In this document: positions 27,115-59,586 of the stretch, in pieces
How positions within the stretch are numbered: position 1 is the first letter of the stretch
How the letters are laid out: each line of letters opens with the position of its first letter
Source of the DNA: Nepenthes gracilis
Taxonomy: Eukaryota > Streptophyta > Magnoliopsida > Caryophyllales > Nepenthaceae
Direction: 5' to 3'
Length of the DNA: 64,000 nucleotides
Assembly (NCBI GenBank): GCA_033239525.1
Contig: BSYO01000030.1
Coordinates: forward strand, 10,685,030 to 10,749,029
The notes under the pieces: generated by a model
What the model was told of the DNA's origin: nothing
What the model saw: the letters and a program-made list of their open reading frames with translations, nothing else
Database searches by the model: none
Translations under genes and position numbers: made by a program

Positions 27115-30100
27115 CTGCAAGAGGTCGAGCATTTCAATCCAAGCTCCAAATTTCATTAGAAAGGTAGCAACACATCCTCAGGGGAGAAAGCAAAAGGGCC
27201 ACCGACTTTAGATAGTCTCTAAGATATCTATAGAAAGTTACATTTTCTTTTCGATCATAGTTGATTAGAAAATCATATTTATTTTCTAATTAATTTAGAA
27301 ATATGACGTCTTGAAATTTTGCTTCTTACTAAATTTCTGATGAATATAAAAGAAAAGAAACACTGAAGAAAACCTTGTCTTGTCAGTTGGGGCCATAACT
27401 ATGGCGATTGCCTCTGGGACCATTACCTTCAAAACAAACGACGAGGTTAGATAATTCTTGGCAAAATAATCACGAAAAAACAATCACTGCATGTCAAAGT
27501 CCAGATCTCACTGGTACAGAAATAATGAGTGCATGAAAATATCAGTATTAATATCTGTCTCGAAAATATCGATATTAGGTATATCAAATAATATATATTA
27601 AATAACACGATATATTATCAATACAACAATATATTGCGATATTATCACAATATCGAAAAATATCAATATCATGGAGTCCAATATTGATAGAATCATTGAT
27701 ATTTTCATCTATATTAAGCACATATGTGATACTGAAAGCCAGAAAAATATCCCGAGTAAAGGCAAAATGATCTGATTAATGGGCAATGAAACAAGTAGGA
27801 TATATGCATGTTTAGATATCTAACATATTTACAATATCAAGGGGGGATTATACATCCCATGAGGCTGGCATAACAGAGCAACTTCATGAGTGGATTATGA
27901 AATGACAGAAAGCCGATGAGTAGGGCCATTACTGAGACAACTCAAGCATTGACCTTCGGGCTAATGAATAACCTTTGGAGGATGGTTAGTGCATAGCCGG
28001 GATGATAAATGGGCTAATGCTATTCCAGTTCTTGTATTCCTCTTTAGGAAACCTAAAAACCGAAATATCAAACCTGAATTGCTAGAACTCAAAAACAAAT
28101 ATTCTCAAAATGCACTCCAAAGGGTAGGAAACACAGCCCATATTTAACTTCGGAAAATGCAAAACCCAAAACAACGTTCTAGCGAGTGATGTTATGATTT
28201 TTCTTGTGAGGAAACTGCCATATTCACCCGATTGTCCTAGTGCATAGCCGGGATGATAAATGGGCTAATGCTATTCCAGTTCTTGGATTCCTCTTTAGGA
28301 AACCTAAAAGCCGAAATATCAAACCTGAATTGCTAGAAGTCGAAAATAAATATTCTTAAAATGCACTCCAAAGGGTAGGAAACACAGCCCATATTTATCT
28401 TAGGAAAATGGAAAACCCAAAACAACAACATTCCTGCGAGTGATGTTATGATTCTTCTTGTGAGGAGACTGTCATATCCACCCAATTGTCAGAATTAAAA
28501 GTTGGGTGGATGACTGTTAAAGATTAAATAGTTACTTAAATTATTTGCTGTAATTTCCATCATTCATCTACCCAATTTCTAATTCTAACTGTTAAATAAA
28601 TATGAGAACTTTTCAACTAAAGGGACCAAAACAGCACTCCATTCTAGCAACTTAAGATGCCAGGAAATTGCAAACTTATCATTCTGCCCCTGCAGAAAAG
28701 AGCAACATTTACTATAGTGACACTCTAGAATTTTTATTTTCCTTGGATTAATCCTTTAAGCCACTGCATCAATTGGCCATGAATTTCTTCCAAAAAAAAA
28801 AAAGAAACCCACCAGAGCTAACATTAAATAGCACAGAGAAAGTTCATATGAACCCTGACAATCCATGATTAGATTACTGTACATGAAAATCAGATATTAA
28901 GCGTGCTGGTTGTTCATATACTCCCATAATCTTTTACAATAACAGTTCAGATGCATACAACTTTTAAGAGAAAGAGAGGCAGTTGTATGAATGTCACGAT
29001 GAAAAGAAATGGTCTGATGGAAGCAAAAGATAAGAAACGAGGAAATAAAATCATTTACTAATTACCTGATATGAATATTGGGTGTGTAGATCTATTGACG
29101 ACATGAAACATCTTTGAGAAGGATGTGTCTGAAACAAGAAACAAGCAGCAAAGTATGGACTAAAGCATATGCCTATATGAAGTAAACCTTTTGATTAGTG
29201 TCTGGGGAAAAAAAATTATCAGCAACAGAATCATCTTTAGTGTTAGCATAACACTTAACTACAAATCAGCAGTCATTACAGAAAAAAATGCACCAAAATA
29301 TGGAAAACTTGCTTGGAGAAAAGGGAATGCCAGCCTTGCTACTGAACAATAAACATGCACCATGACTTGGAAAATAAGGGCTTTATTTCTTCTTAACATA
29401 AGTCTTCAGACTGTACTCTACTTGGTCCACGTGTAAAAATATACAAATCTTTTCGAATTACAAGGCTAATATTAACAAGTAACAAGCAAAAGGAAGGGTG
29501 AGACTCGAACTCACATCAAATATAGATCCATAGGATTAAGTGCTAACAGCACAACTGTTACGGGCCTAAAATTCTGATTTTTTGGTTTTTCTGATTTTTT
29601 CTGCTGTTTCCATTACCTGTTGTTTGCCATGTGAATTGTTATTTTTGTTCGGTTGCTTTTCAACCGAATCAGTTAAGTTTTTGCTTTAAGCTGTCACTGT
29701 GTAGTTGGGGAGAAGGTAATTGGAGTTTACTGTGTCTTTTCTCTCTCACTATCTTGTCTCTCTGCCTTTCCCCCCTGTTACTCTCTCTCTCTCAATCTCT
29801 TTTTCTCTCTTGATCGGTCTTTCCCTTCTGTCTCCCCCACTTCCTTTCCCTATTTCCCCTTTGCTTGATGTCCCTTCCCCTACTTCTTCTCCGTGATTTC
29901 ATCTTCTTCCTTCATTTTGGCGGGTGTCACCGGTGGAGCACGTAACATTGGTGCTTACATTAAGACAAGGCAGATGAAATGGCTTTGATGACTGAAGAAC
30001 AAGCGCTCGACACACTCGAAGCTTCCATCGCCATGCTTGCAAATGCGATGAAGGACTTCCAGCAAGCTATAGACAATCGTCACAAACACTTCCTCCATGG

Positions 30101-33100
30101 CTTCCACCATGGCACAAATCCAGTCTTCCATGGCTGAAATCCGTCAATCGCTCACAAGAATCGAGCAACAATCTATTTCGTGGCCGCCGACCCATTCACC
30201 ATTAGTGGCTTCTCTATCTGTTGGTATCCTTCCTCCACCGTTACTTCCAACCACTATTTCGTTCATGGTGCCTTTGACCATGATGCCACCACCGCAGCCT
30301 CAAATTTCAACCCAAATCTTACCCATAAGGCTACAGTCACAACCGGACACCCAAATCGCTCACCCACTTCATTTACCCCAGCCTGCCATTCCTTCTTGCA
30401 AAGCATACGAACTACCACATGCAGACCACATCACCAGCTCTGCTTCCACCATGGCATCATTCCAGAAACCCCTCACCAAAATCCTTCCTACCGTGAACCA
30501 AACTGACCGAGAATTCTTGCCACCAGCAAATTCGCCTTTGCTTCCAACTCCCTCACCGCTTCTGATTTGTACCACTGATATTTTATCTCAACCGGTTCAA
30601 ACCCTACCCCATGCCTCACCGCCCATATTACCAAAATCTATCGGCATGACAAAATTTGTGGAAAACAAAGCGGATATCAACTGAGCGAGTTCTCACCGCC
30701 CACCACTCACCCAACCCTCTGGTAATTTCGTTTCAATTCTGGCCACAAACCCTCCCCTAAACTGCCGATAAAGACATTGCCACCTACCGCAATGTTCCCT
30801 CATCGAGAACGAGGCTTGTGCTTTGATGGTGAAGAACAGTTTTTATGTATAATGGTTAGGGGAGATAGTCTTCACTATCCTGGAGCCACAAATTCAGAAC
30901 CCCAAATTAACATTGCAATCAGAGTTTACAACACCACAACTCATCTCCTAGACAAGAAATCAATCCCTCCGTTGCAAGACAAATTTGATTGTTGTGCTTG
31001 GAAAATACAGCTTCTGTCAAGAGAAGAATCAACCAAATGGTTTGCAGAAGAAATTCCAGCTATGGCAAACTTGTTATTGAGATCTCCGACATTTTTGGGA
31101 TCACATGATCAAGATGTGGACAGCCGCATTGAAGGGGTTGAAACTCGTCCTCGCTTATTAGCACTACCATAGGCAGGAATTGTTATTCTCAATGAGGAAC
31201 TGGTTGGCTCTATTCTATCTTGTTCATTCTTTTGCTTGTTTCCAACAGCTCAAGGAAGTTCCAAATACCATCCCATGGTCAAATCTGCTCATCTAATTGC
31301 GAGTCTCTCCACAAGCTATCATGAAAATCAGGAAAGCAAAATAAAGTGTTTGATATATTACTTTGAGCAGGTCAATCCTTCGTTACAATCTATTATTCCA
31401 AATCAAGACCATGATGTATCTGTTGTCATGAAATCCTTCAGAGCAATTGCTCTTCTTGGAGCTAGAAGCTCTGGGCTACCGAGTCTTGCAACTAGAGCTC
31501 ATTATTCTGATGAAGCAGAGCATGGTCTAGAGTGTCCAAGCTATCCCTGGCTGCATAAAGGCATTCTCAGCTCATATGACCATGCATCCATTCGTCGAGG
31601 TCACCCGGTTTACCAACAAGTATGTGCATCTTGTTATTCAATGTCACTAATTTCTTATCTAGACCTAGTTGGTGTGGCTTCCGATGCAGACGAAGTAAAG
31701 CCTGTGGCAACTCAAATTAAGGTAGTTGATGGGCCCAATGATAAGGGTGCAATGTTCACTCGCCCTGGCAAGCTAAGTGATAGTTTCCCTCAACCATATG
31801 CAAACGAGCAAGCAGCTAGGTTTGCTACTGGAGGGGTGTATCTTCCTGATCTAATCATTACCAAGGCTAGCCATAATACTGAGCCAGAGATAGAGGAGAG
31901 GAAATTAGTGAGCCACCGGATCCAATCACATAAATGGATGGTTGGGGACTTGTGAAATTTGCTGGTGGACTACTCATCCAAAAGGATGAAAGAAGCAATA
32001 AGGCTCGGTTTTGCTGCCAACAATCCTTCTAAGTGGCTCAAGTATTTGCCGTTGGCTAAAGAGAGTTATAGTACAGCTTGGCGCTCATCTGTAATGATTG
32101 GTTCCTTTGTGGCCATGTATGGAAGCCCTCCCTGTCCCTAATTCACTATGCCCAGGGCACTTCTTTTGTAGCATTTGTAGATGATTAACTATGCCTAGTC
32201 CTGATTTGATTCCAAAAGCTGGCCACCAACGGAGTTAGAGCTTGCCTCGTTTTATTTGCTATTGGAAATGGCTTGTATGCTTGTCGGGTTGCTCAAAGAA
32301 TTGGATCTTGCTCCAAGATTTTGATCAAATCCCTTGGCCGGTATCAAAGTCCTGTGACCAGAATCGACCCACTTATTTAATGCTTGGGGTTAGATTCATT
32401 TGGATGTCTCTATGGATTGTGGCCGTGACTGGAACTTTGAATTTGTACTTTCCACCATTGATTATAATTGCATTATATTGAACTTAGCTAGGACTGTAGA
32501 GGCTATGTGGAATGTTGCTAATTTGACAATGAGTAGGGTGGTTGCTCAGTATTATTTTGAGGGTAATTGTATTACCCTTCATCGCGGAGGTGCTTGTCTT
32601 GGGACTCCCTTTGTGCCTACCATCGAAGCACTGTGGATTTGGGCTCGGGGTTCTATGCATGTTTTCTTATGCTCCTTGCTGCTTGGATATCATACAATCT
32701 GTCTACCGATATGGAAATAGCAAGGCCTTTGTGCAGGTTATAGCATGCACAACAATTTTCACAAGGAGCCTCCAACCAAAAATTATAGACGTTTCGCATG
32801 CGACAGAGAGGTCACTGAATGATGACGGTGTCACAATTTATCAGATAATGACAATTAAAAGATCTTCGCCAGTGATACGGATGCTAATATGCACACTAGG
32901 AACTACGGGGAAACGAATTCGTTGAGTGATATGGGAGATTGTGATAAACCTTGAGGACAATGTTCTTTTAATGAAAATGACAATGTTACGAGCCTAAAAT
33001 TCTGATTTTTTGGTCTTTCTGATTTTTTTTCTGGTATTTCCATTACCTATTGTTTGCCATGTGATTTGTTATTTTTATTTGGTTACTTTTCAACCGAATC

Positions 33101-36100
33101 AGTTATGTTTTTTACTTTAAACTATCACTGTGTAGTTGGGGAAAAGGTAATTGGAGTTTACCACCTCTTTTCTCTCTCGCTGTCTTGTCTCTCTGCCTTT
33201 CCCCCCTCTATTACTCTTTCTCTCTTAGTCTCTTTTTCTCTCTTGATCTGTCTTTCCCCTCTGTCTCCCTCACTTTCTTTCCCTCTTTCCGCTCTGCTTG
33301 CTCTCCCCTCTCCTGCTTCTTCTCTGTGGTTTCGTCTTCTTCCTTCGTTTTTGCAAGTGTTGCCAGTGGAGCATGTAACAACAACCCTTATGCCTCAAAA
33401 TACACATATTTGCATAAATGCATAATAATTCTTTATTAACTTTTTACAAGACTGAACACACCACCTTTGAGGGATTATATTTCTAACAATACCAAGGTTT
33501 GAAGTTCCTCATGAAGGCAAAGTATTCCAAATGCAGCAGCAGAGATCATGGATTTTGTAGAAATATGAGAAAAGAGATAAAGAAATATTTTTTGTATTTC
33601 TCTGTGCATAAAATTGTATAATAAGTTATCTTTTTATAGGAGGAGGTAGCCTGAATTAGAAAAGTTGTAATAACATTAATTATACAAATTACTTAAATTA
33701 GAATATATCAATAATCTAATTTAGGAATAATATAATACAAAAGTAGTCTAAATTAAAATATAGCAATCTTTTAATTTAAGAAGAATATAATATCCTTAAT
33801 AAATAAGGATATTAAGATATTATATTATTAATATTCTCCCTCAAATTCAAAATAGTTTGGAACAGACCAATTGGAGTTTGGAAACTAGATCGACATGGCG
33901 ATCAAGTGGGTGAGCTTTGGTAAAAATATCAACCAATTGATCAATCAAAAAAACCGGGAAAAGTGTCGTCCTTGAGGTGATATCGCACTAAGTAGTAATT
34001 AATCATGATGTATTTGTGCATTCATAAAACACATTATCATGAGTAATTTGAATAGCACTATGATTGTCGCAATAGAGAGGAGTGTTGTGAGGTTGAGAAA
34101 CACCAATATCCCATAAAAGCCAAAAAAGCTCAGATGTAGTATTAATAAGAGCACAATATTCAACCTCAATACTAGAACAGGCAATAATACTTTACTTTTT
34201 ACAGTGTCATAAGATAAGAGAATCCTCTGATAGGCAAAGAAAACCAGAAGTGGACCATCGATCAGTAGGGTCACCTGCCCAATCATATCAAAACATACTC
34301 GGAGCTCCAAGGAGGAGTGAGAGTAGTGTAGTCCAAGAAATAGTGTCTTTGATATAAGAATATGAAGGACAACTGGGTAATGAACAGAACGGGAAACTAA
34401 TATAAACTGGCTGACAATATACACAGTATAAGTAATATCAGGCCTAATAACGTTGAGATATATGAGACTTTTAACCAATTGGTGATAAAGGGTAGCATCA
34501 GAGAGAAATTCGCCATCAATAACACAGAGTTTGACATTATATTTAAGATGATTAGTAGACGTTTTACGGTCAGTGAGCCTAACACGAGAAATAAGATCAG
34601 AAGCATATTTAGTTTGTATCAAATTAAATCATCAGATGTGGTAGTGACCTAAAGGCTAAGAAAGTAGATAAGAAAACAGAGATCCCTCAATTTGAAGTGC
34701 TAACCCAAAAAGTGTTTAAATTTAAGGATATCAGAACTATCATCACCAATAATAATCATGCCATCAATATAAATTAGGAGAATAGTGGTACTGACAAATA
34801 GTGTGACAAGTAAAAAGGGCAGAGTCACGATTATTGGAGGCAAATCCAAGTTATGGAATAATTGAATTGAATTTGGCAAACCAAGCATAGGAAGCCTACT
34901 TAAGACCGTATAATACTTATCAAATGTGATAAACTTATTCAGGATAATAAAGTTAATCAAGAGGAGGCTTCGTGTAGACGTCCTCAATCTAGTCACTATA
35001 TAGAAATGCATTCTTTATATCCATTTGAAATAAGGGCTATTGACGTGCAATAGCAACAACTAATAGAGATCAAACAAAAGTAACGCAGGCAATAGGAGCA
35101 AAAGTCTTCTCATAATCAACAACATACTCTTATGTAAAACCCTTAGCCATAAGACGAGTTTTGTATTGGATTTCCGAACCATTAGAATTTATTTTCCATT
35201 TGTATACTCATTCATTACCTATTGCAGTCTTATTAGGCGGAAGAGCAACCAGATGCCATGTGTGAATCCTATAAAGAGTATCAAGTTCTTAAGACAGCTT
35301 GTTATCATAGAGGGTTAGAGCAAGCTTTACAAAAACTATATGGTTCATAAAGAGCAGTAAGAGCGGAGAAACAGTGATAGTCACAAAAATGTGTAGGAGG
35401 GACACGTATCCAATTGTAGCAATGGAGATCCACTGTGGGAGGGGACTCTAAAGGCATGATGGTGATATCAGAGTCATCAAATGATCCAAATCCGTTAGGA
35501 GTAGGTGAGCTTACAGACTTTGCATCAAACGAGAAAGTAGGAAAAGAATTCACGGTTGAATCAATAAAGATTCGAGAGGAAGCAGAATGGTCTGAAGAAA
35601 ATAAAGAGATATCAATGAAGCCTTTGTATTCTTAGAACTTAACATTTTTAAAAATACAAAGACGATTGGTAATGGGATCATAGCACCAGTAGCCTTTATG
35701 TTTAATAAGTTATCAAAAAAAAAAAAATACTAGATGATGCTGGAAGTCACTAGATGATGCTGGAAGTCACCAGAAGGCTGCTAAAAAATTTATCGGAAGA
35801 TGCTGAAAAGTTACCGAAAAGATGCCGGAGATCAGCGGCAGTGGGCAGCCAGTAGCAATGGTGGCACTAGCAGTGGCTAGCCGCTCAGATGAATAGTGGT
35901 TGGGTATTTGGAGATGGGTAGCATAAATGAGCCCGTTTGATGATTGGGCCTGATCTAAAAATGGGACCATTACACGCATTTGGGCCATGAGGGAGATCCG
36001 GCCTACTCTCAAAATGCCATGTTTTGATTGTTTCCTGTAGTGAAACGCGGCGTGGGGGGAAAATGTGAAATGAAGTGTTTCAACATAAGATAATTTGAAA

Positions 36101-39100
36101 CAGTGTTTTAAGAACAAGTCAAAAACACGGACAAAAGTATTAACGCATGGTTTTAATATCTGAAAATCCACCAAATGATGTGTTCTTGATCTTCTTCTTC
36201 CTAAAATGTCAATGGCTCCAGATACCATCTGGTGTTCGTGGTCAACGATGGCTCCAGATGAACACAAGGATGAGTTGATGAACGTGGTTGGCAATAGCTT
36301 TGGGAGGTGCAATATTGGTATTTGGTGCTGTTGTCATGGAGAGAATACCAGTCTTCGGAAGCCACTGAGACTGGTAAACTGGGGATGGTTCAAAAATTAG
36401 TGCTTGTCTTTGGGAGAGAAGAATGGCAACATTAGGAATCGGTGCCGACGGTAATGGGCAATGAGTGCTAGCTGTCGATGCCGAACCACGGGAGTGATGC
36501 ATAGTTGGAAGAAGAAGTAGAGAAAAGAGATTTTAATGGACAATGCTCAAACATTTCTTTGATACTGCGTATAAATATGAGAAAAGAGAGAAAGAAAGAT
36601 TTTTGCATTTCTATGTGTAAAATTGTACAAGCAACTCTTTTATAGAAGAATGAAGTAACCTAAATTAAGCAAGTTATAATAATGGTAATTACATAAATTA
36701 TCTGAATTAGAATATATTAATTATCTAATTTAGGAAGAATATAATACAAAAGTAATCTAAATTAGAAAATAATAATCTTCTAATTTAGAAAAAATATAAT
36801 ATCCTCAATATAGAAAGGTATTATGGCATGTTTGGTTACTAGAATGAAATAATGTAGGAATAGAACAATTATTCTCAGGTAATGAAATAAGATGGGAATA
36901 GAGAGGGTAATTTATATTTTTATATTTGGTTACTCATTTGGAATAATTATAAATAAATTAAAAATTAGTATTCCAATATTTAGTATGTAATAATAGTATG
37001 AAAAATATGGTGGAGATTTGTGCTAATGACTTTTTTACCGTTAATCAAGAAAAAAAATTCTAGAGGTCGAAGAGTATGAGCAATGTCTACAACAATGACT
37101 GCTAATATTATACACAGCAGAATTTTGGTACTTGTTTTCCTATCCACAGCTTCTAGAGCCTTCTTACTGCAAAGGAAAAATCCTCAACTCACAAGTAGAG
37201 TGCGCAAATAAACAGACCTCCACTTGTAGTTCTTTCCATCTTTACATGCCTTTGTACAGCACCGCACTGGGTAAAGCTAACATTCAAACACTCCATGTGA
37301 AAATTCGCAATAGTCTTCCCTGCTACAGCAGCCTTAAAGGTACTTCAAGCACATAGTGCCAGAGTAGTAGTATTTCCGCGGGTTCCACCGACGGATCTTC
37401 TCGCTAAAGTAAGCAAACGGACAGTCGGTCTAGTCGTAGCTGCAGCTGCAGGCGTAGAAATGGACCTTAAACTCATACGTCCAAGATTGGCCAAAGGAAT
37501 ATGGGTCGTAGTCCGGGTTGAAGTCATCTCTGTGTTCGGACTCACTGTTGTACGGGAAGAATTTTTGCATAAGGGTGGCAGTCTCGAATTTGAACGGCAT
37601 CGAATCGGAGAAAAAAAGAATGATGAACGGCTAAGAGATGAAAGACGAAGGAGGAAGCACCAGGGTTTCAAACAAAAGATAAAATGGCGAAGGGAAAGAT
37701 GGTAATAATTGCGGGAATAGTTATACAAAGAATAAAAAATACCTAAGAAATTTTAGTATTTTTTATTCCTTGAGTTAGAAAAATATTTATTCCTTTAGGA
37801 ATAATTATTCTGCGTAAAAAAGGAATCAAATGCAAGAATAAATATTTCATTGGTAATAATATGGAAATAGAATTTCTATTACCACCAACCAGACATGCAA
37901 TTATGGATATTATATCCTCAATAGATTTGAAGGATGTTAAAAGGAAACTCGGTATTATTACACTGTCTGCCAGTAAAAGTTGCTGACTCTTAAATACCAT
38001 TTTCAAAGACCATCAGTTCACATGCCTTCATCAACGTGCATTTCTGCCTTAAATTGTAAAAATACTGCGTAACTTAGATAAACCTCGCTCTCTGGTTTGG
38101 CCCCTAGCTTTGCTTTGCAGCAAACTCCTCAAAGCATGGTTACATGTTGCCACTCAGCTAAAATGCTCAACAGTATATTTACATGGAATATACAAGAGAA
38201 ACAGCAGTCTTACAACTTCTATGCAGCATTTTCTTCATGAAAGAGAAAAAATTAGGGGCTCAGGTTGCCAAATAAGAGCAACATAAGCAGTTATAAGGCA
38301 TTTAATTATTTGATATCAACTATAATAGATTATATATATCAGTATCAAACGTATCAAAAGTAATTTATTTTTTCCAAATCAGAATCTTAGAGGCAAATAT
38401 CACCCATCATATCAAAAAAATTATATATAAAGCTAACATATAGTCGATATGGCAATATACATGATTTTTGTCATTATACAAGGAAATATTAATATCGGGA
38501 ACCAAATACTAATATTTCATTCGATGGTAGATGCTAATGGAGGACAGAGACAGAGACTTAGGACAAGACACTTTAGATCTAGTTAACTTAGACATATGTC
38601 AGCAGCAAAACAACATGAAACCATAATTTCAACATAATATATCTGCCACAACCTTTACATCGTAAATGCTATATTCAAACACTCTAACCAGCAGAACTGA
38701 GGTAAAGCCAGTTGGTTAAGCCGCCTCCTTCCACCCATCTTGTGCTTCCGTATCTCTGCCCCCACAACTTATAATGAAAGACTAGCTCGTGCTAGTGAAT
38801 ATGACTCTAAAATTTTTAAACTCATGGAAAAACAGAAGCTTATGTATGCATTGTAATTTACGTATTAATGGAAATGGCACTAGATGGAAAATATCAACAA
38901 GCATGCAAAATATCAACTGATATATATTAGTATCAAGCCTTCAATATTAATATTTCTCATAACACAACAAAAGTGTGATATATCACCATATCAACAATAT
39001 ATCGACTAATATTCCCCTAGGTTCCAATCAGAGAAAAAAAAAATTGTCCAATACATATGACACCGATGCAATTGAACCCAATACCGGTACTAACATTTTC

Positions 39101-53040: not shown

Positions 53041-54012
53041 TGTTAGAGACATTTGTATAATTGGCATATTCCGTGACAATATGTATTATTCATCGATGTC
53101 GGGTTGTGGGTTGTCGGGTTAAAGTCCGTTCCCGCCGCCGCCGCCGAGCCCATCCAAAGCCTCGCCCGCTCGCCATGAGCTCGATTCCCGCCGAGCGTAA
53201 AAACCAAGAGGGTGCCCGCTGGCTCATTGCCGCTAGCCGCTTCAAGCCGAAACCCAAAGAAGTCGCCCGTCTCGCTGCTCGCCCTTTGACCGCTGCGCCG
53301 CGCGCAGCCCCGCTCGAGCGCGGTGCAACGGGCATATTTTTTTGAACGCGTTTTTGGCTCCACTATAAATACTAACCTTATGTTTTGAAACCCTAAGGAT
53401 TCTCGCAGAGTTGATTTGCGTGCCTCTTTGAGAAGAAAAGCCTCTCATGCTTCAAAGTTATTGTTCCTCATCTTAAGAAAACTAACACTACAATATTGCT
53501 CTACATGTTCAAACTAGTTTTCTCACCCACCTTATTTAACCATCGAATCTTTGCCTTCTACCATCGTTGGAGACTTTGATTCGTGAAGAAGGAGACTCGT
53601 TCGTGATTGGAAATTCAAGTGGTTCGAGGGAAGATTGACGTGAAGACCGGAAGGTGTCGGTTCGTTGCTGTGGGTAAATCCAAGGAGTTCATTGGTAGGG
53701 ATCACGTGGCGGGAGTAAGTCGGCTAGGGTTAGCAGCGTCGTTTTCGTAAGTTGATTTTCATAGTGCGTTGCTTCCCTAGCCGTTGAAGCCGAAGTGTTT
53801 TTCTCGATACCGTGGGTATCGAGTTTTCACTTCGTCACCAAAAATCGCGTCTTTATCTTTATTGCTCATATTATTTATATCATGCATGCTTGTTAAACTT
53901 GTTAACATCTAGTATTAAATATCTTTTACGTGTATTAGATATTTATTATTATTTTCGCTTTTAATTTATACTTTTAACGGGTTAAAACATTAGCACAAAA
54001 CGTGCTTTTTCA
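53041..54012 (+). repeat. 5' LTR of the TR-GAG element
   Basis: 972 bp, TGTTAGAGAC...GCTTTTTCA. U3 has a GC-rich Ser/Arg-codon-like block rich in GCTCG words, then a TATA box CTATAAATACTA near 53363. Confidence 0.95.
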
Positions 54013-54014
54013 AT

Positions 54015-54025
54015 TGGTATCAGAG
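54015..54025 (+). other. Primer binding site of the TR-GAG element
   Basis: TGGTATCAGAG two bases after the 5' LTR, an exact initiator-Met tRNA complement. Confidence 0.92.
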
Positions 54026-54055
54026 ACTTACCCTGATCCGCGGCCCCAATCTAGA

Positions 54056-55950
54056 TGTATACGAGTGGATCGCTCTCCGTTCATCCCTTCTTTGATGGGA
54101 GTAACTATACCTATTGAAAGGTTCGGATGAGAGCCTTCCTAAAATCTCTAGATGAGCGTGTTTGGGCACGTACTCAAGTTGGGTGGACTCCACCCACTAG
54201 TTCCTCTGGTAACGAACCAAAAGACTTATCTTCATGGACCAAAGAAGAACTCGATGCATGTAATTGGAACAGTAAGGGGCTACATGCTATTTTTATGGCT
54301 GTATCTCCCGATGAGTTTAAACGTATTTCAATGTGTGAGACTTCTAAAGATGCATGAGACATTTTAGAAATTACTCATGAAGGCACGAAGCTTGTTAAAA
54401 ATTCAAAATTACAAATGCTCACCACTAGATTCGAAGGAATAAAAATGAAAGATGATGAGACCTTTGATGAGTTTTATGCTCAATTAAATGATATTGTGAA
54501 CTCCACATTTAATTTAGGAGAACGAATTCCTGAGAATAAAATTGTTAAAAAAGTTCTTAGGTCACTTCCTGAACAATTTAGACCTAAGGTCACTGCTATC
54601 GAAGAAAACAAAGACCTTGATAAAATGAAGATTGAAGAACTTGTAGGATCCCTACAAACTTATGAGCACACCTTGCCACCAAGGAAAAACAAATCACTTG
54701 CTCTAAAATCAAGTAGGAAGAGCGAAATCGGGATTCGATGAAGAATCGTGTAGTGATGATAATTTTCCTTATTTCTCAAGAATTTTAAAAAGTTTTTAAA
54801 GACAAATAAATCTTCCTCGAAAAAATCTGATGTGAGCTCAAAACGTTCAACCAAATTTGAGAAGAAAGACCAACGTGAATTTAAGGATTCCAAATCAAAA
54901 ATGACTCAAGGAGTTCAATGTCATGAATGCAAAGGATTTGGTCACTATCGAGCTGAATGCCCAAACCTTAAACGCAATAAGGTCAAGCTTTTAAAGCTAA
55001 TGTGACTTTAAGCGATGACGAAGAAGAAGATGACGAAAAATGCTCTGAAAATGGCCCTGTCAAATACATAGCGTTTATGACTCAATGTGTGATAATGCTG
55101 TAGAGAATATTAATCAATCTGATAGCTCTGAGGCTAAGTCAGAAGCAGAATTTGATGGCCTTCAATAAGCCTACGATAAACTATTTAGGGAATGTTTGAA
55201 AGTAAAGAAATTAAATAGAACCCTAAACGGTAGGATCATCGATTTGGAAAAAGAAAACTTATCTCTACAATCCAAGGTAAATACTAAAAGTCAAGAAACT
55301 GAGAATCTGAAAATCTCATTTTCTAAACAAATCACAACCTTGGAATCTGAACTTGAGGCCACGAGAAAAGATTTGAAACAATTCATAAATGGGTCAACAA
55401 AACTTGATCATATACTTGGGTTGGGTAAAAGTGGAAAAATTAAACATGGGTTGGGATATGTTGAGAATATGTTCCCAAATGACGTGAAACCTAAAATAAT
55501 TTTTATTCCCACCAAGAAAATGCCACACCAATACATTAACACATCAAAAGTCACTAAGCAACCGGCTCGACGTGTGGCTACTCAATTTGACTCAACTCAT
55601 TTGCAAAATTTACCTAATCAAAAAATGGTGAACAAATCATCAAAATCGGTCAAGTCTTCTATCAACATAAATCAAAGATCTATGAACCGTTCCACCGTTC
55701 CTAAGTTTGTACCTATTTGTCATGCGTGTGGAAAAGTAAGCCACATTCGTCCTTGATGCTACACTGTGAATTCTTTGTACAACGAAAGAAAATGGCCAAG
55801 AGTGAATAAACTCCTTGATCATATTCAAAAACTAAATGAACAAGTACAAAGATTAAACCAGAAAGTGAATTCGTGGAGAAGCATTTGGGTTAAGAAAATT
55901 GAGCTAAATTTTCCTACGGTAAATTCCGGATAAATGGGTCCTACACTGTT
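54056..55950 (+). pseudogene. gag of the TR-GAG element, with stops
   Basis: The frame opens at the ATG at 54056 (MYTSGSLSVHPFFDGSNYTY) and hits TGA where copia gags have Trp. It continues MRAFLKSLDERVW...GNEPKDLSSWTKEE, and a second Trp-to-TGA change lies at 54355. ILEITHEGTKLVKNSKLQML and MKDDETFDEFYAQLNDIV follow. After frame changes a zinc-knuckle CHECKGFGHYRAEC is intact at 54919-54960. Next come an acidic zone, a coiled coil (IIDLEKENLSLQSKVNTKSQ, 55196-55400) and a second knuckle CHACGKVSHIRP-stop-C near 55720-55760. A gag binds the RNA and builds the particle; this copy is no longer intact. Confidence 0.9.
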
Positions 55951-56803
55951 CTAAACAAGAATAAATAAAAATAAAAATAAAAAAAATAAAATGGTGAAAT
56001 TGAGCACTCGCTCGCTGGAGGCTCGAGCGCCCGCTGCCTGCCTTTATCTTCGAGCACGCAGCGGGCGCAGCACATAAACCCTCACCCGTCTTCGTTGCTC
56101 CTGCCTTTCTTCTTGTGTCGGCCGCATCTCTCCCTTTACCTCATCACCAGGTCGGCTAGATCCACACTCCTTCTCGATTCCGGGCGCTCTCAAGGTAAAC
56201 TCAACCCTCGTCCCTCTCTGTTTTTGGTTCTGTGCAACCGCCACCGTTCTTGGTGGAATCGGCCTAAAATTTGCCAATTTTTGGTCGGCTGACTTCACAG
56301 GTACACATCGCTCTCCTCATTCCTTCAAATCCACCGGTTTTTGCATGGATTTTGAGCGTAGTACGTGGATTCGTGCGTTCTCGCCGCCGTTCATAGTGTC
56401 GGTCCTCACTTGCCCTATTTTCTTTCGTTGGCTGACTTCGTCGGCCTCCCAGTACTCACCTCCTTACTCCAGATCCCCCGTTTCATACGTGAATCTTGAC
56501 CGTAGACCTTGGATCTGTGAGTCGTCGAGTGTTGTCGCCCCGTTCATGGCGGAGTGCCGATTTCCTCACCTCACCGGCCGGACGCCCGATTCGGTGTGTG
56601 GGTGCGTCCTGCTGTCAATCGGCGGAACCGTGCGTGCGGCGGTGTAACTCGGTGGGCCTGCTCTCGCGCTGCGTTCGTGGGACTCGCCGGCTGCCCCCGT
56701 GCCGTCCGTATCCCTTCTTCGCGTCGACCGTGAACGACGCACTGCTTTATTCCGGCGGCGATCGCGTCTGCACGGCATTCCCCACCAAACACTTCCAAAA
56801 TAT

Positions 56804-56852
56804 ATAAATAAATAAATAAATAAATAAATATATATATATATATATATATATT
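56804..56852. repeat. AAAT/TA microsatellite
   Basis: (AAAT)n then (TA)n directly upstream of the second ORF's splice acceptor. Confidence 0.9.
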
Positions 56853-56884
56853 CCACACTTTTATATTTAAATTGTGGTGTTCAC

Positions 56885-56896
56885 TTTTCTTTTCAG
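56885..56896 (+). promoter_or_regulatory. Candidate 3' splice site of the second ORF
   Basis: TTTTCTTTTCAG ends exactly at the ATG at 56897. A good plant acceptor, suggesting the ORF is made from a spliced transcript. Confidence 0.6.
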
Positions 56897-57688
56897 ATGT
56901 CTGCTCCACGTAAGTCTATGTCACGCAAGTCGAGTGGCAAACGCACTCGACCGAGTGGAATCTCCGCTCCTGATCGCTTTATTAGTCCCGAGGCTGAGAC
57001 TCTTTTTCAAACCCGTATGTCTCATCGGCAACTCTCCCTCGAACAGGAAGTCTGCCTTGACTCTGTCGACCCTTCCATCTCGTCTCTTTTCCTTGACCGT
57101 GGTTGGTCGTCGGTCATCACATGTTTGATTGCTCCGTCGCTCATTCTTATTCAAGAATTTTATTCAAATATTCATGCAATCACTTACAATTCTTTCTCCA
57201 CTTTCGTGCGCGGGGCACAACTGTACATTACTGCTGATATCCTTGCCCGCATTATTGATATCCCTCGGGTGGCCAATCCACCCTACCCTTACTCTTCGGC
57301 GCTCACCCGGCCTAGTTTTAATGAAATTGCCACCTTTCTTCATGGTGCCCCTCTGGAGTGGAATGGCAAAACGTTCCAAACTTTGTACCTCTCCTCTCGG
57401 CGACTGGTCGTGAGCCGTATCATGCTCACGAATATGTTTCCCGTCTCCCACTCCTCGTCCCTTTCAGAGGAGAAGGCATTATTTTTGTATGCTCTGCTAA
57501 GTGGTCAGCCCATTGACTTACCATCTCATTTTATCACTCATATTATTGCCAACTTCTCCGGTCGGAAAGAGGCCAACCTACCTTTTGGGTGCCTTATTCA
57601 GCGACTCATTGCTGAGCTCAGTCACCCATTCGCGGACTATCCTCGCCTACCGCTCGGCCGACCGATCACCTCCACCTCTTTTGCCTAG
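56897..57688 (+). CDS. Second ORF of the TR-GAG element, 'putative plant transposon protein'-like
   Basis: 263 residues, ATG directly after a splice acceptor. A basic Ser/Lys-rich start (APRKSMSRKSSGKRTRP) precedes a globular region (RFISPEAETLF, SLFLDRGWSSVITC, IQEFYSNIH, VRGAQLYITADILARIIDIP, LPSHFITHIIANFS). This pattern recalls the helical domain known only as 'putative plant transposon protein' in plant genomes. It has no enzyme motif, membrane span or zinc site that I can see. Codons are GC-rich at the third base, unlike the AT-rich gag. After the TAG at 57686 the same frame stays open in a Pro/Arg-rich stretch (DPEELFNEPLPAVPPPR) to about 57897, so the protein was longer once. Its role is unknown; it may bind RNA or gag. 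Confidence 0.72.
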   Translation: MSAPRKSMSRKSSGKRTRPSGISAPDRFISPEAETLFQTRMSHRQLSLEQEVCLDSVDPSISSLFLDRGWSSVITCLIAPSLILIQEFYSNIHAITYNSFSTFVRGAQLYITADILARIIDIPRVANPPYPYSSALTRPSFNEIATFLHGAPLEWNGKTFQTLYLSSRRLVVSRIMLTNMFPVSHSSSLSEEKALFLYALLSGQPIDLPSHFITHIIANFSGRKEANLPFGCLIQRLIAELSHPFADYPRLPLGRPITSTSFA

Positions 57689-58073
57689 AGTCGGTCCCAC
57701 GCACGTCGCTTTGCTGTCGACCCCGAGGAGCTGTTCAATGAGCCTCTCCCTGCTGTGCCTCCTCCTCGGCCTCGGACGAAGCCCCCTCGGGCTCGCCTCG
57801 TCCTTTCCCGACCCGTCGGCTCCCCGGGACCATCCACCTCGATCGGCACTCCACCTCCTCCTCGGCCCGCTCGATGGGTCGATGTCTCGCATTGTTGACC
57901 GTTTTGAGCGTCTATTCTCTTCCCAAGAGCGGATTCTTACATCCCAATCTCAGCTCCAGTCCCAAATGCTTGCTTGCTTTGATCCGTTGGATACTCGGTT
58001 AGACACTCAGGAGGCTGCGTATCAACGCTGGCGGCGACATTATGGCACTCCTCCTCCCAACGATTCTGAGTGA
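57689..58073 (+). pseudogene. 3' continuation of the second ORF, frameshifted
   Basis: A Pro-rich linker in the original frame, then after a frame change near 57890 a helical tail reading RIVDRFERLFSSQERILTSQ and LDTQEAAYQRWRRHYGTPPP to a TGA at 58071. The heptad pattern suggests a C-terminal coiled coil. Belongs with 56897-57688. Confidence 0.65.
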
Positions 58074-58098
58074 TCCCCTCTCTTTGGCTCTTCGTGAC

Positions 58099-58111
58099 AA
58101 AAAGGGGGAGA
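58099..58111 (+). other. Internal polypurine tract
   Basis: AAAAAGGGGGAGA, 25 bases after the second ORF's end and 490 bases before the true 3' purine tract. Resembles the terminal purine tract of copia elements. Confidence 0.5.
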
Positions 58112-58597
58112 TCATGGTTTCCTTTTGGCGCATGCTGATAGGCGGAGCTTGGGCGAGATGTACTTCCTTGTGTTATGGGGAGTTAGACTTGATGTACTTC
58201 TTTCTGTTAAGGGAGTTCGATTTGATGTATTTCTTTTTGGTACTTCTTTTGTGATCCGTGCTATCTATATTATCTGGTGCTTTGTTATTAATGTTATCTA
58301 CTCTCTTTGTTGTACCTTAGTATTGCATGCTGTATCTATTCTTGCCTACATATTTGTTGTTGGTACTAACCTTACTTGACCAAGAAACTGAAGTTACACA
58401 GGCAGTCAAGCATGTTTTCATCTCATCGCCTCAGCAGCTCTCGTATAGCTATTTACATTTTTTTTATGTATCTCTTTTGTATCACTAGGCGTAGGTTTTT
58501 ATGTACACGGATTCTATCTCGGTGGTGTATGAACCCGTGATTCACTTGTATTTATTTATTTTTTGAGTTTTGTTACGGAATTGCCAAAGGAGGAGAT
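58112..58597 (+). other. 3' untranslated interior of the TR-GAG element
   Basis: T-rich with short repeats of GTTAGACTTGATGTACTTCTTTCT type (58185-58250). Ends in the purine tract AAAGGAGGAGAT (58586-58597). Confidence 0.6.
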
Positions 58598-59586
58598 TGT
58601 TAGAGATATTTGTATAATTGACATATTCCGTGACCATTTGTATTATTGTATCAATGTTGGGTTGTGGGTTGTCAGGTTAAAGTCCGTTCGGTTCGCCCTC
58701 CAGTCGCTCGAGCCTATCCAAAGCCTGCCCGCTCGCCAAGAGCTCGATTCCCGCTCGAGCGCAAAAACCAGTAGGGTGCCCGCTGGCCTGTCGCTCGCTA
58801 GCCTCTCGAGCCGAAAAACCAGTAAGTCGCCCGCTCGCTGCTTGCCCTCTGGCCGCTCGCCGCGCGCTTGAGCCCCGCTCGAGCGCCGGTGCAACGGGCA
58901 TATTTTTTGAACGCGTTTTTGGCTCCACTATAAATACTAGCCTTATGTTTTGAAACCCTAAGGATTCTGCAGAGTTGATTTGCGTGCCTCTTTGAGAAGA
59001 AAAGCCTCTCATGCTTCAAAGTTATTGTTCCTCATCTTAAGAAAACTAACACTACAATATTGCTCTACATGTTCAAACTAGTTTTCTCACCCACCTTATT
59101 TAACCATTGAATCTTTGCCTTCTACCATCGTTGGAGACTTTGGTTCGTGAAGAAGGAGACTCGTTCGTGATTGGAAATTCAAGTGGTTCGAGGGAAGATT
59201 GACGTGAAGGAAAAGGTGTCCGGTTCCGTTGCCGCGGGCAAATCCAAGGAGTTCCTTGATAGGGATCACGTGACGGGAGTAAGTCGGCTAGGTTAGCGCG
59301 TCGTTATTACCCGGTCTGTAAGTTGATTTTCATAGTGCATTGCTTCCCTGGCCATTGAAGCCCGGAGTATTTTTCTCGATACCGTGGGTATCGAGTTTTC
59401 ACTTCGTCACCAAAAATCGCGTCTTTATCTTTATTGCTCATATTATTTATATCGTGCATGCTTGTTAAACTTGTTAACATCTAGTATTAAATATCTTTTA
59501 CGTGTATTAGATATTTATTATTATTCACTGCTTCCGCTATACTTTTAACGGGGTCGAAACACGTTAGCACAAAACGTGCTTTTTCA
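58598..59586 (+). repeat. 3' LTR of the TR-GAG element
   Basis: 989 bp, closely aligned with 53041-54012. The GC-rich U3 block is preserved better here, with CTCGAG palindromes and AAAACCAGTA repeats, then CTATAAATACTAG. Confidence 0.95.

Follow-up and report, generated by a model that had tools for sequence, protein, structure and literature searches.

The genome of Nepenthes gracilis contains a long terminal repeat (LTR) retrotransposon that carries pieces of three host genes, one of which sits within another with its borders on exon ends. The element lies at 29556-33380 of the window, the 64,000-nucleotide stretch analysed here (C30:10685030-10749029), and copies of it were sought across the 752.5-Mb assembly. 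Between the LTRs are found, in order, a gag-like remnant, part of the gene for poly(ADP-ribose) glycohydrolase (PARG), part of the gene for cytochrome c1 (CYC1), more PARG, an integrase-like remnant and a fragment of a choline transporter-like gene (CTL/PNS1). The CYC1 cassette consists of exons 2-6 minus an internal segment bounded by GT..AG and is placed exactly between the last two exons of PARG. This arrangement suggests that the element probably grew in steps, from PARG to PARG-CYC1-PARG by way of a spliced chimeric RNA, and in part of the family to a form with CTL.

The identities of the first two genes had been claimed in an earlier note made from the letters of this DNA, and they are borne out. 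The Cytochrom_C1 profile matches the window with an E value of 7e-36, and solved mitochondrial cytochrome c1 chains match it with E values of 1.5e-68 and weaker. The PARG_cat_N profile gives two matches on either side of a stop codon, one with an E value of 0.002, which falls short of the curated cut-off, and one with 1.6e-12. Downstream of CYC1, the frame is the C-terminus of PARG and matches residues 451-507 of the Fragaria protein (E 7e-06). The note was also right that both genes lie within the mobile unit, between the LTRs and amid element coding remnants, with the ACAAC duplication outside. The single reading frame that it described at 30777-32141 is not open, being interrupted by TAG at 31170-31172 and TGA at 31953-31955. 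Its gene limits (31373/31374 for PARG/CYC1, and CYC1 to 31910) shift to 31370/31371, with PARG returning at 31908, and its count of two captured genes rises to three with the CTL fragment, which extends to about 32769.

The borders of the cassette can be read against the host genes. In the host PARG gene on C36, the end of the penultimate exon is GGATCAG|gtact and the start of the last exon is aaacag|GTGAGCC, with a 260-nt intron between them. In host CYC1, exon 2 starts ttgcag|GTCAATCC and exon 6 ends GAAATTA|gtaagt. The internal joint connects exon 4 (...CATAATG) to exon 6 (CTGAGCC...), for which the corresponding host sequences are ATG|GTCAGA and GGGCAG|CTG; these make up a GT..AG pair whose position is ambiguous by one base. 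Both outer joints and all borders are in phase 0, and the cassette preserves the frame. The CYC1 gene on C18 matches the two main exons with 85-93% identity; the second cytochrome c1 gene, on C29, was rejected as the source at 70-78%.

The joints were scored by aligning the 22 CYC1-bearing copies found in the assembly to a reference fused from the host sequences. All 22 are free of gaps at the 5' joint, where 21 match 10 or more of the 16 bases and L026 matches 9, and all 22 are likewise gap-free at the internal GT..AG joint. The 3' joint is gap-free in 21 copies, having been lost in L023, and matches at 16/16 bases in the window, while the exon 2/3 and exon 3/4 borders are gap-free in 19 and 21 copies, respectively. 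Since the copies share descent, these counts represent one event seen many times. In eight copies (L027, L031-L035, L038 and L060), more of the PARG penultimate exon is retained at the 5' joint, away from a later deletion; in the 14 copies with that deletion, the PARG side of the joint amounts to only a few bases.

At the 5' joint, AG and GT are common to both sides and the joint can slide by about two bases either way, but the 3' joint has no overlap and cannot slide. This bears on the possibility that reverse transcriptase switched templates between co-packaged element RNA and spliced CYC1 mRNA, in which case the match to exon borders would be due to chance or microhomology. Template switching is the usual view of LTR-mediated capture and is described for LTR-mediated retrocopies (PMC5408686) and named as a capture route in plants (PMC13317346). 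The AG/GT overlap at the 5' joint would suit such a switch, and other joints in the family (the GAGC deletion and the AGATG at CTL) look like template switches. However, the overlap-free 3' joint falls exactly on the exon ends of both genes, which by chance would happen with a probability of about 4e-5 for that joint alone (calculated by hand, PARG having 8 junctions over 1199 nt and CYC1 having 6 over about 1000 nt), and a switch at this position appears quite unlikely. Since the CYC1 borders are at splice points, which random template switching would rarely meet, we infer that the 3' joint was made by splicing and that a spliced chimeric RNA was then reverse transcribed.

The captured pieces are intron-free, as previously claimed. 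The window runs on uninterrupted at the three exon boundaries that were checked against the host genes in the same assembly, one in PARG and two in CYC1; the intron that separates exons 2 and 3 in host CYC1 has a length of about 5 kb. L051, a copy with PARG but no CYC1, crosses eight host PARG intron positions. A 4-base gap is present at the last of these, and at another, 72 nt that may represent a small exon are unmatched in the host stretch compared. This continuity across intron positions identifies spliced RNA as the source. A host PARG exon for residues 80-135 had no match in 3 kb of additional host sequence.

Ordinary splicing would yield exactly the observed joints and phases if genomic CYC1 exons 2-6 had been located within the last PARG intron, either in a copy of the gene or in a proto-element, and two cis-spliced forms of its transcript could then have given rise to the PARG-only and the chimeric elements. 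However, both forms have the same PARG end points in the element, which would not be expected from two separate captures. In addition, there is no such locus among the matches listed, and the last intron of host PARG is 260 nt. We therefore regard this origin as unlikely.

Copies elsewhere in the genome, which the earlier note had proposed to map, are numerous. The same PARG-CYC1 block is present at no fewer than 22 loci on 15 contigs (the window, L019-L038 and L060, all examined), and at least 11 further loci are PARG-only, meaning that there is no CYC1 match in the stretch examined or among the matches listed there, several of these stretches stopping short of the 3' LTR. A 783-base query gave at least 50 matching pieces, which also included the two host CYC1 genes (C18 and C29), host PARG (C36), ten PARG-only loci and three weak PARG matches of about 66% on C8, C33 and C15. 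A search with the PF05028 profile added the eleventh PARG-only locus (L014), as well as L015, in which PARG and CTL occur together with a 41-nt CYC1 match. The same search revealed further pieces of the PARG catalytic domain, some of them in long open frames, at C15:16588383, C7:7283725, C12:20296705 and other places, which may belong to additional elements or genes with PARG.

The copies differ in what they retain. The PARG helical part adjoins CYC1 in 14 of the CYC1 loci, including the window; L031 and L033 have the catalytic part with CYC1 and lack the helical part, and L027, L032, L034, L035, L038 and L060 have short PARG stretches ahead of CYC1. A CTL part of more than 200 nt is found in 16 of the 22 CYC1 loci and in none of the 11 PARG-only loci within the stretches examined. 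Where readable, the start and end points of PARG in the PARG-only copies are the same as in the chimeras. The spliced PARG joint can be read in five of the 11: it is exact in L059 (GGATCAG|GTGAGC), GGATCAG|GTGAGA in L017, diverged without gaps in L014 and L058, and broken by the above-mentioned gap in L051. One genome thus keeps a series of intermediate states of a mobile element that was accumulating host genes.

In the CYC1 tree, all 22 copies fall into a single clade that is separate from host CYC1 (support 98/94). Nested within it is a clade of 18 (100/99), 16 of which have the CTL part, with L032, L031, L033 and L027 outside. The best tree from PARG and flanking blocks has one group of L031, L033 and L015 (100/100), one of eight PARG-only copies (100/100) and one of 20 chimeric copies (97/93), while L010, L011 and L059 are left without a resolved place near the host gene. 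A single clade of CYC1 bearers on this tree has p values of 0.076 in the approximately unbiased (AU) test if L015 is counted as a bearer and 0.088 if it is left out. A single gain of CYC1 is thus compatible with the PARG tree in the sense that it is not rejected, although the tree itself does not establish it.

The proposed sequence of events would start with a stretch of spliced PARG mRNA entering the integrase region of the element, and the PARG-only copies exhibit the resulting state. In the second step, splicing would have set CYC1 exons 2-6 between the final two exons of PARG, in phase 0 on both sides, and the resulting RNA would have been packaged, reverse transcribed and inserted. The joint of the two PARG exons, CAG|GTGAGC, is of the AG|GT type and might act as both donor and acceptor, which would allow the cassette to enter a PARG sequence that was already intron-free. 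Serving as donor to CYC1 exon 2, and as acceptor after exon 6 in the same or another element RNA, it would generate the observed order. We take CAG|GTGAGC to be a good donor by the general consensus. The chimeric RNA may have come about by cis read-through between two elements residing in CYC1 introns 1 and 6, or by trans-splicing; among the matches listed, there was no trace of either. In the lineage of the window, a deletion between short GAGC repeats would then have removed the catalytic part of PARG, and a piece of CTL that is also present in sister elements with the same backbone would have joined at an AGATG overlap. In the window, the catalytic part is indeed deleted at a GAGC repeat, which was read in this copy only.

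Several points weigh against this account. The splicing route is deduced from DNA sequence. The matches listed include no locus with CYC1 exons in a PARG intron, no intermediate, and no PARG piece inside the CYC1 gene on C18. The acceptor side of the PARG joint has no evident pyrimidine tract. Neither the CTL joint nor the PARG deletions coincide with splice sites, and splicing would therefore account for the CYC1 step only. The best PARG tree does not group the CYC1 bearers, although the overlap of L031 and L033 with the three large-clade members used for comparison is just 370-510 columns, and a single clade is rejected (AU p 0.0011) when L015 is scored as lacking CYC1, a result that we ascribe to disregarding its 41-nt CYC1 match.

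More generally, the capture of spliced mRNA would recreate AG|GT joints inside an element, and if these are usable as donor and acceptor, the element RNA could gain entire phase-compatible exon cassettes by splicing to host pre-mRNAs, with reverse transcription making the gain permanent. We offer this only tentatively. If true, it would mean that exon trapping allows LTR elements to build up chimeric genes, in frame and with splice-exact borders.

The third gene was recognised from copy L024, in which a frame of 560 residues matches the Choline_transpo profile (E 4.4e-5, below the curated cut-off). Among 56 protein matches, this frame hits N. gracilis Nepgr_020851 with an E value of 1.2e-66 and 128 identical residues in 210 aligned columns. 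The host gene is at C20:2512788-2517208, where one exon is 100% identical to Nepgr_020851; candidates on C6, C3, C4, C36:12601600 and C5 were rejected in its favor. In copies such as L023, the CTL piece reaches residue 434, past the host exon end near residue 406. In the three-gene copies, CTL starts at about residue 205, at an AGATG that is common to the PARG-only copies and a copy on C2. Longer CTL copies, starting from about residue 98-110, are found at C2:10666350-10667332, C7:3310906, C22:14070164 and C20:15629960; of the first three, which were inspected, those on C2 and C7 have the backbone of the same element family ahead of CTL. This shared backbone and the shared AGATG suggest that CTL was probably acquired from a sister element by template switching. 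That the CTL capture itself started at an exon border is unsupported, since the C2, C7 and C22 matches start near residue 108-110, about 15 residues into host exon 2, though divergence could mask a few residues of the true start. In L034 (C14:18631500-18638500), about 1.2 kb lies between the integrase remnant and CTL, perhaps a nested insertion.

A chimera that preserves the frame might be a functional fusion protein under selection. The CYC1 frame is free of stops in 8 of the 22 copies, and the 560-residue frame of L024 is open throughout. However, the other 14 copies have stops in CYC1, the frame of the window copy is broken by two, and the ratio of nonsynonymous to synonymous substitution (dN/dS) among the CYC1 copies is 0.90 (231 pairs). 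The corresponding value for the host CYC1 paralogues is 0.06, at a dS of 1.45 that is near saturation. Both halves of the PARG signature GGG...QEE are readable in ten copies, and in every one of these the signature is altered; in L059, only the first half can be read, and it is unaltered. CYC1 thus looks near-neutral among the copies, a maintained fusion protein is very improbable, and the captured frames, which show no sign of maintenance, appear to be passengers.

The closest known system is maize Bs1, an LTR retroelement whose hybrid frame combines segments taken from three host genes, as recounted in a review (PMC13317346). In that account, Bs1 resembles the Nepenthes family in having intron-free pieces of several host genes between its LTRs, and the two are of the same kind. 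As a precedent for multiple capture in one element, it also qualifies the earlier note's view that double capture in frame is rare, while the PARG-CYC1 pair itself is undescribed in the open-access literature searched. The genes are different, however, and here at least 22 chimeric loci and their PARG-only relatives display successive states; that one capture is splice-exact on both sides may be a further difference. LTR-mediated retrocopies likewise consist of intron-free host pieces in an LTR element, but their joints are placed at microsimilarities (PMC5408686), whereas the 3' joint of CYC1 is on exon ends and has none. Dual-specific splice sites, in which one AGGT is usable as both a 5' and a 3' splice site, are described for human sequences (PMC10809524). 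The PARG joint has the same form, and its use in this way in Nepenthes would be analogous. In the open-access literature searched, none of the titles dealt with splice-exact capture by LTR elements of plants. In retroviral oncogene transduction, host exons enter an LTR element via read-through chimeric RNA; the present case differs in that it concerns a plant element and that the cassette is splice-exact at both borders. One joint suggests that the pieces were connected by splicing and not by slips of the polymerase, and the fusion of exons from unlinked genes by retroelements becomes testable with RNA reads and related genomes.

The element itself (Table 1) is bounded as the earlier note described, by matching LTRs and a perfect ACAAC duplication at 29551-29555 and 33381-33385. 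Both LTRs start with TGTTAC and finish with GTAACA, and they are 88.1% identical over 396 aligned sites, a Kimura two-parameter (K2P) distance of 0.132 in an alignment that includes up to 5 bases beyond the LTR ends. Assumed substitution rates of 1.3e-8 and 7e-9 per site per year give an insertion age of 5.1 or 9.4 million years, respectively. TG..CA ends with a 5-bp duplication were recovered by script in 3 of 18 LTR pairs (the window, L021 and L035). A Pfam search of seven window frames found no element domain above cut-off, and a search of the window for polymerase and integrase motifs gave no match, indicating that the element is non-autonomous. The family is degenerate and perhaps of the Ty3 type. 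A Ty3_capsid match in L010 has an E value of 0.024, below cut-off, and the motifs YPQTDGQIE and LPLAK/LLLAE in the copies are ones that we take to bear on the Ty3 type. What we presume to be a zinc knuckle-like motif, RERGLCFDGEEQF, is located near 30805, followed by a part upstream of the PARG piece that we take to be protease-like. The remnant at 32012-32194, which includes WLKYLPLAKESYS...MYGSP, is presumably from an integrase.

Table 1. Features of the retrotransposon and its captured gene pieces, in window coordinates.
Feature	Position	Strand	Remark
Target-site duplication ACAAC, left	29551..29555	.	
5' LTR (TG..CA)	29556..29947	+	392 bp
Element coding remnant: proline-rich gag-like, then protease-like part	29990..31010	+	no Pfam match above cut-off
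PARG helical-domain segment	31012..31370	+	about residues 80-195; ends in last bases of penultimate exon
CYC1 exon 2	31371..31588	+	
CYC1 exon 3	31589..31865	+	277 nt; host 280
CYC1 exon 4, first 13 nt	31866..31878	+	joined to exon 6 over GT..AG-bounded deletion
CYC1 exon 6, last 29 nt	31879..31907	+	
PARG last exon	31908..32011	+	
Integrase-like remnant	32012..32194	+	no Pfam match
CTL/PNS1 fragment	32195..32769 (approx.)	+	Nepgr_020851 residues 205-414 (approx.); frame interrupted in window copy
3' LTR	32984..33380	+	397 bp
Target-site duplication ACAAC, right	33381..33385	.	

Other repeats occur in the window. At 33601-36823, two 214-nt direct repeats, 3.0 kb apart and 78% identical, start about 220 bases past the element and may delimit an old LTR element. 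At 27987-28516, there is a 189-nt repeat pair with 95% identity and starts 251 bases apart. Direct repeats of 241 nt and 164 nt at 53405-59525 are about 5.6 kb apart with 98-99% identity, and a Transposase_32 frame (56828-57688, E 1.1e-19) lies between them, perhaps as part of a young insertion.

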